A DNA stretch of 64,000 nt, taken from positions 485,001 through 549,000 of the forward strand of contig JAODUO010000195.1 in NCBI GenBank assembly GCA_025642075.2, read 5' to 3'. Shown here in pieces: positions 43,201 through 46,200 of this stretch. The DNA is from Ridgeia piscesae. Its lineage: Eukaryota; Annelida; Polychaeta; Sabellida; Siboglinidae. The first letter of the stretch is position 1. Every line of letters begins with the position of its first letter. Made by a program: the position numbers and the translations under genes. The notes beneath the pieces were generated by a model. That model made no database searches and had not been told where the DNA came from. It saw only the letters and a list, made by a program, of their open reading frames with translations.

Positions 43201-46200
43201 ACTTAGAGTTCTCCTCATTATGTCTACACCCCGATACAAGGGGGTGTCATGTAATATCACCCTGCAGGTTTACTGTAATAGAAAAACACATTGTGGAGAA
43301 ACGAACTAATATACCCAGTACTACACACACCCAAATGAAAGGTTGTACTCACAATCATAATGTGGACCAAAAAGGAGAATTACAAGTATCATAATTTGTT
43401 TACTTCAACAAAACAATGCTGATGCAATGCCAAAATGTCAGTATAACTTAGGGGCAAAAGAACCATTACATACGCCCAAATCAATTACAGGTATATCAGA
43501 GCAAACTGCTTTTTCAAGATGCTAAACAAATCATGATCAACTGGTCGAGTATTGCAGTGTTGGTTTATTCCATGTGAAAAACATTTTAGGTTGAATATTC
43601 AGTGCAAAATCCAACATTTCGTCACATGATGCCTGTTTTATGCAATCTGTTGATGGAACGCCCTATAGTGATCTTGACAGAATATTAATATGTACTACAC
43701 ATGAGACTTTAACAAAGATACTAAATGTATACGCAGAGGGAGGGGGGAGAAGTGGAGAGAGGGAGGCCAGCTGGAGTGGGGGAGGGTGGACAGGGGAAGA
43801 GGGAGACAGGGAGGGAAACAGAGAAGGAGACAGATAGGTAGAGAGAGATACAGTAGGAGAAATAGAGAGTGAGAGACAAAGATAGAGACAGAGATATAGA
43901 GACAGAAAGAGATAGAAAGTAGAGAAAAGAGTTAAACAGAATGGGGATAAAGACAGCCTGAGTGAGCTGGCGGTAGAGATAGGACCAGAAGATACGGTGG
44001 TGTTAGTGGGTGTGCCATCTACCTACTCACACACGCAGGCTGTGAATACAGGTGCAGGGTTAGAAAGCAAAACCAGTTAGAGCACCCAGTGTGTACCTAT
44101 CTTGGGCATCGTGCGGACCCTAAAAGAGGACCGGACAGAACCCAACTCAGATTCCTCCACTGTAAAGTTCATCTGATAGGTCAGATACCGCATGAACCGG
44201 CCAGTATCCCCACTAGGACACGGGGTACCACAGAACTCACAACTACACTGGTTCAGGTTGAAGTAGCCGGAGCAGTCGCCCGAGGCTGACCTGGGGATGC
44301 AAACAGACATGTCAACTGAGGACTATGACAATCACCAATTCCTTATCTCCTTCAGAGATGTCACTCCTGGAAGATGACCATCTTCAGCCGTTCATCAGGG
44401 AATGACCAAGGAATGTCATCCCTCACTCAGGGAATGACCAACCAATGTCAGCCCTCACACTCAGGGAATAACAAACCCATCTGACAAACAAACACAATCA
44501 CCCAGTGCCTTCCGGAGTAACAAATCCATCTTCGGCGGTTTGCATCATCTGAACACACCATGGCCTGTCAGAGATTATTCGGAGGATGACATAAATTGTA
44601 TAGACACATACACAAGTACACAGAACATGGACACAGGCAGCTTGTACCTATATGCTGGGTGGCTGCCATAGCAACTTCCACTGTTGGTTGATTCGCCAGG
44701 AATCGGCTCACTGTGGTCACTTTCAGCTTGTAGACGGAGGAGGGTTTGAAAGCTTGGGAAGAGACGGGGAGCTCTGTGCCCCGCCCAAAGCTGTGCCCAT
44801 TGCTTGGCCACAGACACCGGCACCTTGACTGGCCAATTGCATCGAAGGGGATCGTACAAGAGCTCCATGCACTCGCTCTGCTGCAACGACAGCATGGTGG
44901 CCACCATCTTGATCAGTCACTCAGTCAAGGCTACATGTCTGGACCAATCACTCAGTCATGGCTACATGTCTTGGTCAATCACTCAGTCATGGCTACATGT
45001 CTGGACCAATCACTCAGTCATGGCTACATGTCTTGGTCAATCACTCAGTCATGGCTACATGTCTTGGTCAATCACTCAGTCATGGCTACATGTCTTGGTC
45101 AATCACTCAGTCATGGCTACATGTCTGGACCAATCACTCAGTCATGGCTACATGTCTTGGTCAATCACTCAGTCATGGCTACATGTCTTGGTCAATCACT
45201 CAGTCATGGCTACACGTCTTGGTCAATCACTCAGTCATGGCTACATGTCTGGACCAATCACTCAGTCATGGCTACATGTCTTGGTCAATCACTCAGTCAT
45301 GGCTACATGTCTTGGTCAATCACTCAGTCATGGCTACATGTCTGGACCAATCACTCAGTCATGGCTACATGTCTTGGTCAATCACTCAGTCATGGCTACA
45401 TGTCTGGACCAATCACTCAGTCATGGCTACATGTCTGGACCAATCTCTCAGTCATGGCTACATGTCTGGACCAATCACTCAGTCATGGCTACATGTCTGG
45501 ACCAATCACTCAGTCATGGCTACATGTCTTGGTCAATCTCTCAGTCATGGTTACATGTCTTAGTCAATCACTCAGTCATGGCTTGATGTCTTAGTCAATC
45601 ACTCAGTCATGGCTTGATGTCTTAGTCAATCACTCAGTCATGGCTACATGTCTTGGTCAATCACTCAGTCATGGCTTGATGTCTTAGTCAATCACTCAGT
45701 CATGGCTACATGTCTTGGTCAATCTCTCAGTCATGGTTACATGTCTTAGTCAATCACTCAGTCATGGCTTGATGTCTTAGTCAATCACTCAGTCATGGCT
45801 TGATGTCTTAGTCAATCACTCAGTCATGGCTTACATGTCTTAGTCAATCACTCAGTCATGGCTTGATGTCTTAGTCAATCACTCAGTCATGGCTTGATGT
45901 CTTAGTCAATCACTCAGTCATGGCTACATGTCTTGGTCAATCACTCAGTCATGGTTACATGTCTTGGTCAATCACTCAGTCATGGCTTGATGTCTTAGTC
46001 AATCACTCAGTCATGGCTTGATGTCTTAGTCAATCACTCAGTCATGGCTTACATGTCTTAGTCAATCACTCAGTCATGGCTTGATGTCTTAGTCAATCAC
46101 TCAGTCATGGCTTGATGTCTTAGTCAATCACTCAGTCATGGCTTGATGTCTTAGTCAATCACTCAGTCATGGCTTGATGTCTTAGTCAATCACTCAGTCA

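Follow-up and report, generated by a model that had tools for sequence, protein, structure and literature searches.

Candidate either-or exons for the second half of the D2 domain in a gp130-like receptor gene of the annelid Ridgeia piscesae

Introduction

Can a single cytokine receptor gene complete its cytokine-binding region in two different ways? The question is raised by a stretch of 64,000 nucleotides from the siboglinid annelid Ridgeia piscesae (NCBI GenBank assembly GCA_025642075.2, contig JAODUO010000195.1, positions 485,001 to 549,000), called the window here, in which positions are counted from its first letter. A gene on the minus strand of the window resembles the gp130 family and carries, between the exon for the first half of domain D2 and the exon for the first half of D3, two exons, designated A and B, that each encode a second half of D2. 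We consider it likely, from the arrangement and conservation of these exons, that D2 of the receptor is completed in two ways by an either-or choice of A or B.

New ligand preferences in class I cytokine receptors are generally attributed to gene duplication and the pairing of chains. Swaps of half a recognition domain by mutually exclusive exons are familiar from the half-Ig clusters of Dscam, with dozens of copies under the control of RNA pairing, and the alternative exons of FGFR1-3 code for the second half of the IgIII domain. In the FGFR genes, the mutually exclusive IIIb and IIIc exons for the IgIII loop set the ligand spectrum (PMC3238399). Among full texts judged by title and abstract, in a collection without preprints and most subscription journals, no report of an alternative exon for a D2 half in class I cytokine receptors was found. 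A survey from 2026 of the metazoan IL6R pathway uses a single word that starts with "splic" and none that starts with "exon" (PMC13203501).

Exons A and B and their reading-frame logic

Exon 3 (47673-47550, minus strand, 124 nt) runs from phase 1 to phase 2 and codes for the first half of D2, including its C-x9-C-x-W signature. It is followed on the same strand by exon A (44880-44648, 233 nt) and exon B (44290-44097, 194 nt), both of which run from phase 2 to phase 1, have coding frames open throughout and end at the same donor, ATAG/GTAC (the slash marks the splice junction; TAG/GTACAA in A and TAG/GTACAC in B). Exon 5, which begins at 36824 in phase 1, accepts either of them, and both the E3-A-E5 and the E3-B-E5 joins read open. 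Joining A to B at the standard sites leads to a stop after 12 codons, in line with the initial annotation, which had placed it within about 13, and joining exon 3 directly to exon 5, with neither A nor B, shifts the frame and also reaches a stop. In this gene, as in the paralogue P2 described below, the two exons share their phases and the frame is kept at the standard sites only with exactly one of them. The coordinates, lengths, phases, open frames and donors first proposed for A and B were all re-derived. The extent of the swap had been put at half of the cytokine-binding domain; what would be exchanged is D2's second half, which amounts to roughly a quarter of the D2-D3 pair.

A chance scan for open exons of 180-249 nt running from phase 2 to phase 1, with splice-site filters tuned so that A and B pass, gave no candidates in four other introns of the gene (15.6 kb) and four in the 3.5 kb stretch from exon 3 to B. 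Two of these four are A and B themselves, a third is A shifted by 3 nt at its start, and the fourth is a spurious candidate. When the exon 3 to exon 5 stretches of all four paralogues were searched with profile hidden Markov models (HMMs) for a third A- or B-like exon, only the known exons rose above the inclusion threshold. Visual inspection of the intron between A and B showed no additional first-half exon, which would have given two D2 domains in tandem.

Receptor class

The window protein has an Ig domain, a D2-D3 cytokine-binding pair and FN3 domains up to D8. Its best matches in PDB include the leptin receptor (1.5e-13), CLF-1 (4.6e-11), gp130 (3.3e-10) and LIFR (5.7e-10), which bear out the gp130-like assignment of the initial annotation, and the gp130 match is collinear, starting where the Ig domain ends and reaching D4. 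PDB also returned contactin-2, an FN3 protein matched via D3-D4 (2.1e-11), and other FN3 proteins matched via D3 and the later FN3 domains. With the segment from Ig to D3 as query, two cytokine receptors of horseshoe crabs (2.6e-18 and 3.8e-14) were the sole hits beyond Ridgeia. A profile of the whole ectodomain ranked a usherin-like protein (4.0e-46) above a beetle cytokine receptor (1.8e-26), a rank that the usherin-like protein owes to its FN3 repeats and that is no evidence of orthology; the same profile reached contactins, Dscam and protogenin through FN3 or Ig repeats. The beetle receptor has a D5 segment in common with the window protein, as judged by eye. The match to Pfam PF09240 (E 0.0024) lies under the curated cut-off.

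The cysteine pair of D2 and the C-x-W are preserved, both cysteines and the W being invariant in all six sequences compared (P1-P4, Lamellibrachia and Limulus; P1 is the window gene). At the end of D3, WSNSTS is found in P1, WSEKEW in P2 and WSDPFT in P3, so that the WS core is present and the full WSxWS absent. The protein shares with gp130, LIFR and the leptin receptor an Ig domain, a D2-D3 pair with the cysteine signature and further FN3 domains, its WS motif being only partial, and it differs from gp130, which has three further FN3 domains, in having more of them (D4-D8). From these homologies we conclude that the gene encodes a putative class I cytokine receptor of gp130/Domeless type. 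The Domeless-type receptors of the horseshoe crab are unlike it in that their database entries, the only material compared, show a single second half of D2; against the A and B halves alike, the horseshoe-crab receptors score near zero. An AlphaFold model of the Lamellibrachia protein P0004 had a mean pLDDT of 34 and was discarded.

Both exons in a paralogue

A search of the Ridgeia genome (575 Mb in the published account, PMC9921365, against 628 Mb in the copy searched here) with D2-D3 as query detected three further genes with the exon plan of the window gene, P2 (C297:284-304 kb, plus strand), P3 (C297:361-377 kb, minus strand) and P4 (C478:31-48 kb, plus strand). Between its exons 3 and 5, P2 has an exon A' (L008:5900-6105, 206 nt) followed by an exon B' (L008:6674-6864, 191 nt), in the order seen in P1, both running from phase 2 to phase 1 and both ending at ATAG/GTAC. 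Its frame logic is also that of P1, the A'-B' join and the skipping of both exons each leading to stops. Identity between the genes amounts to 23/64 residues for A and A' and 23/61 for B and B', scores that none of 500 shuffles reached in either case. Protein similarity between A and A' is specific to the coding frame (z 11.6, versus 3.6 and 0.5 in the other frames; DNA z 3.4), and a similar result was obtained for B and B' (z 11.1 versus 0.1 and -1.7; DNA z 6.3).

Exon B has homologues in P3 (179 nt) and P4 (149 nt) as well. These two genes lie on different contigs and are near-identical, with 135/139 residues shared in exons 3, 5 and 6, and they represent either a duplication or haplotypes. 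Their B exons share 37/49 residues, with 10 more gapped, and the ligand-side half of D2 thus seems, from this comparison, to be the part that changes fastest in P3 and P4. These figures do not establish positive selection on it, since the proportion of nonsynonymous differences (pN 0.145) is below that of synonymous ones (pS 0.224) and the upstream intron is also divergent (215/245).

A second species and the age of the pair

The initial annotation had asked for the exon pair to be compared in a relative, and both coding segments proved to be kept in Lamellibrachia satsuma, whose gene model LSAT2_021137 (P0004, 316 residues) has the exon order 1, 2, 3, A, B. Identity between P0004 and the window protein is 61/100 in the Ig exon, 32/41 in exon 3, 37/65 in A and 38/62 in B. 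Compared with P2, it is 21/56 for A and 22/60 for B. Because P0004 is closer to P1 than to P2 for both A and B, and its B groups with the B of P1 (85/88), it is taken as the putative orthologue of the window gene; a tree on the shared domains (Ig plus the exon 3 piece for P0004) did not resolve P1, P2, P3/P4 and P0004 among themselves. Both exons are conserved as coding sequence in P1, P2 and Lamellibrachia.

In a tree of nine second halves, the three A and the six B sequences fall on opposite sides of one branch, with support of 100/100 and in 100% of 200 bootstrap trees. A further L. satsuma protein, P0006, whose model starts at exon 6, is placed as the P2 orthologue (99/99), and P0007-P0009 belong with P3 (97/96). 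Given the A/B split and the grouping of P0006 with P2 rather than P1, the pair is older than the P1/P2 duplication, and that duplication older than the split of the two species. Lamellibrachia luymesi, a congener of L. satsuma, is reported to have separated from three other vestimentiferans about 65.1 million years ago (PMC9921365). The either-or logic first proposed for this locus is thus supported by the presence of both exons in P2 with the same phases and frame logic, by the L. satsuma segments and by the A/B tree. Protein searches at E <= 0.001 returned sequences from Ridgeia, Lamellibrachia and arthropods and FN3 proteins of vertebrates and arthropods, and no other annelid turned up among them. 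The Lamellibrachia model P0008 joins an integrase domain (PF00665) to receptor domains, probably because the prediction ran across a mobile element lying within the gene and produced a chimera.

Proposed mechanism

Exon 3 would provide the first half of D2, with its C-x9-C-x-W, and regulated splicing would then add either A or B. The second half carries additional cysteines and, judging by how the B form aligns with human CLF-1 and the prolactin receptor, the later strands of the domain and its later loops. Inclusion of no exon or of both at the standard sites would cause a frameshift and an early stop, and hence nonsense-mediated decay or a truncated product. The sequences themselves show both exons with their phases and frame logic, the conservation of the pair in a paralogue and of its two coding segments in a second species, and the homology of the receptor. 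Beyond this, we infer that both exons are used in RNA, that their use is mutually exclusive, that wrong products decay, that the pair arose by tandem duplication and that ligands are switched. The pair would have been retained because the A form and the B form differ in the ligands or partners that they bind.

In gp130 and its relatives, established structures have the loops of this half of D2 taking part in cytokine binding. Because such loops bind cytokine in the relatives of gp130, the choice of A or B should change the binding surface. We tentatively propose, with confidence somewhat short of even, a splice-controlled ligand switch in which A or B swaps the D2 half so that one gene answers two cytokines, a switch that siboglinid worms would have retained over tens of millions of years or more. 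If true, splicing would be a second route to new ligand preference, and the two forms would offer a natural pair of binding surfaces on one fixed scaffold; this would also matter for the discrimination of cytokines in invertebrates that have few receptor genes, and for separate tuning of tissues in a symbiotic vent worm. The A/B arrangement would follow the logic of FGFR IIIb/IIIc, here in the gp130 family. As in FGFR1-3, a pair of mutually exclusive exons would supply two versions of a single extracellular domain for ligand binding, whereas FGFRs are Ig-domain receptor tyrosine kinases and the domain concerned here is an FN3-type D2 of a class I cytokine receptor, with the effect on ligands predicted. 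The swap of half a domain is likewise shared with Dscam, but only two copies are found here, with no long intron complementarity.

The exons could also be genuine alternatives without any ligand switch, the A form being a non-binder, a decoy or limited in folding and the choice acting as an on/off control. We regard this as rather unlikely, although A is indeed further than B from the vertebrate pattern. The Pfam IL6Ra-bind domain covers all of D2 in the B form (residues 109-199) and the first part alone in the A form (109-167); the B form aligns to CLF-1 through D2-D3 (1.5e-10), and the prolactin receptor is also matched across its second half of D2. The A form aligns to IL-11RA from D2 into D3 (E 0.0026), and its CLF-1 alignment skips A and falls into two separate pieces. 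However, an AFKP...Y-x-L stretch and a cysteine pattern of its own are invariant in the A of P1, P2 and Lamellibrachia, which suggests a folded and used surface.

Possible splice control

Donor scores were computed from a table of base frequencies and serve for ranking and filtering alone. On this scale, the four A and B donors of P1 and P2 (-0.7 to -1.1) fall below all nine other donors scored (2.3 to 6.1), which fits regulated exons. The GTAC-type donors of A and B are not of the U12 type, and the intron between the two exons (357 nt in P1, 568 nt in P2) is too long for steric exclusion. Of the devices that act against joint inclusion (a short intron, a mixture with U12-type sites, RNA pairing), none was found at this locus, and such a device is not required in all known cases. 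Frame and decay would therefore be the only visible safeguard, with the alternative acceptor inside B discussed below as a possible bypass.

Evidence against an either-or choice and alternative explanations

Several observations weigh against an either-or use of A and B and are gathered here. The first concerns the kinship of the two exons. As profiles, A and B match marginally between the C-x-C and the Y strand (hhalign E 0.0037, probability 8.9%), and shuffled sequences scored as well as the real A-B comparison 64 times per 500 within P1, 28 times within P2, 184 times for P1 A with P2 B and never for P2 A with P1 B. The branches of P2 A and P2 B in the A/B tree are long and were flagged as unsure by the program. 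The two exons probably derive from one ancestral exon by tandem duplication, as suggested by their common phases, the same unusual donor and the weak profile match. The old duplication that the initial annotation had envisaged therefore fits the A/B tree, but the homology of A and B itself is weak. As to splicing, low scores are also seen for the B donors in P3 and P4 (-0.5, with exon 3 donors of 2.4 in these genes), so that donor weakness is no mark of genes with both exons, and no pairing of at least 11 exact complementary bases was found between the flanking introns in P1.

Other adverse observations would be expected if B were the constitutive second half of D2 and A a chance relic, little used or dying, which we hold to be improbable. 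The only Ridgeia model of the window gene found, NP493_195g05022, takes B and not A; the RNA-seq behind the annotation came from vestimentum muscle (PMC9921365). No A was found in the exon 3 to exon 5 stretches of P3 and P4 by tblastn or profile HMMs, which leaves two A-bearing genes among the four Ridgeia paralogues, and in Lamellibrachia P0007 exon 3 passes straight to a B-type half with no A between. Since P3, P4 and P0007 show B only, A is dispensable in that branch. Identity between A and A' at codon positions 1-3 (0.56, 0.50 and 0.47) also offers a weak contrast; that of B (0.51, 0.59 and 0.36) is clearer. What a relic would not be expected to retain is an open frame with matching phases in both P1 and P2, protein similarity confined to the coding frame and, in Lamellibrachia, a protein identity of 57%, like that of the neighbouring exons.

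Slightly less probable still is the inclusion of A and B together in one in-frame mRNA through alternative sites, which would lengthen the receptor by an additional half domain. The main support for it is the Lamellibrachia model P0004, where B follows in frame on a shortened A. In the window, an alternative acceptor that the initial annotation does not mention, located 5 nt into B (CAGGTCAG/CCTCGG), has a phase that fits the A donor and would allow an in-frame A+B, and an AG 11 nt into B' of P2, read from the sequence, would fit likewise. The product, however, would be a second half-domain behind a complete D2, and the standard sites are those conserved between P1 and P2, while an in-frame AG within a dozen bases is, by our reckoning, not unlikely by chance. 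The P0004 model, moreover, runs on beyond B and is cut short at that point. Ab initio predictors pick one in-frame path and cannot represent either-or exons, and we take the A-B fusion as the usual failure of prediction on such exons. Finally, misplacement of A by short-read misassembly is a very remote prospect, largely refuted, because the order E3-A-B recurs at a second locus and in a second species as independent copies in P2 and Lamellibrachia, even though this is a short-read SOAPdenovo assembly with a contig N50 of 10.4 kb (PMC9921365), and exon A stands directly behind a repeat array.

Extent of the gene and other features of the window

All exons of the gene lie on the minus strand. 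Exon 1 (53522-53405), with a start codon and a signal-peptide-like segment, was located with the Lamellibrachia P0004 N-terminus as tblastn query (54% over 39 residues, E 9e-10); it ends in phase 1 at a GCAG/GTAGGT donor and is probably the true start of the gene. Exon 2 (49728-49429) encodes the Ig-like D1. Downstream of the A/B pair, the first half of D3 is encoded by exon 5 (36824-36673, phase 1 to 0) and the second half, with the partial WS motif in the form YWSNSTS, by exon 6 (32663-32516, phase 0 to 1). Exon 7 (29983-29885, limits from a translated match), for the first half of D4, is present in P0001, and exon 8 (29307-29085) completes this FN3 domain. The first half of D5, also FN3, is encoded by exon 9 (28516-28371) and the second half by an open frame at 27467-27243 that is conserved with P2 and P4 and whose exon limits are not set. 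Further FN3 exons, with translated limits and matched in P2, P3 and P4, encode the first and second halves of D6 (25102-24956 and 23664-23512), those of D7 (21751-21623 and 21093-20929) and D8 (19222-18893).

The public model NP493_195g05022, identical at 100% to the window gene in a protein search, extends from inside exon 2 to exon 8 and then into the following intron, without exon 1 and everything past exon 8. By the exons predicted here, the real gene is far longer than this model and reaches at least 18893. Comparison with the paralogues and a segment of Lamellibrachia P0006, carried down to 10 kb past the window, brought up no transmembrane or cytoplasmic exons; in P0006 itself, a hydrophobic segment was seen by eye after the last FN3 domain.

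Past the B donor (44096-44080), the window reads GTHWVL followed by a stop and Lamellibrachia GIVHWVL followed by a stop, and similar GIH..YI stretches follow the D8 exon in P1 and P2. Such short conserved stretches beyond donors possibly reflect splice control or a truncated form.

Much of the intron before A is filled by a minisatellite at about 47120-44915, with a unit of about 31 bp (gactaagacatcaagccatgactgagtgatt), which ends about 40 nt ahead of the A acceptor. Elsewhere in the window, a reverse transcriptase fragment (61108-59988, minus strand; Pfam RVT_1, E 2e-15) adjoins an open frame without a Pfam match, and large tandem-repeat blocks at 1000-9700 give rise to long spurious open frames on the minus strand.

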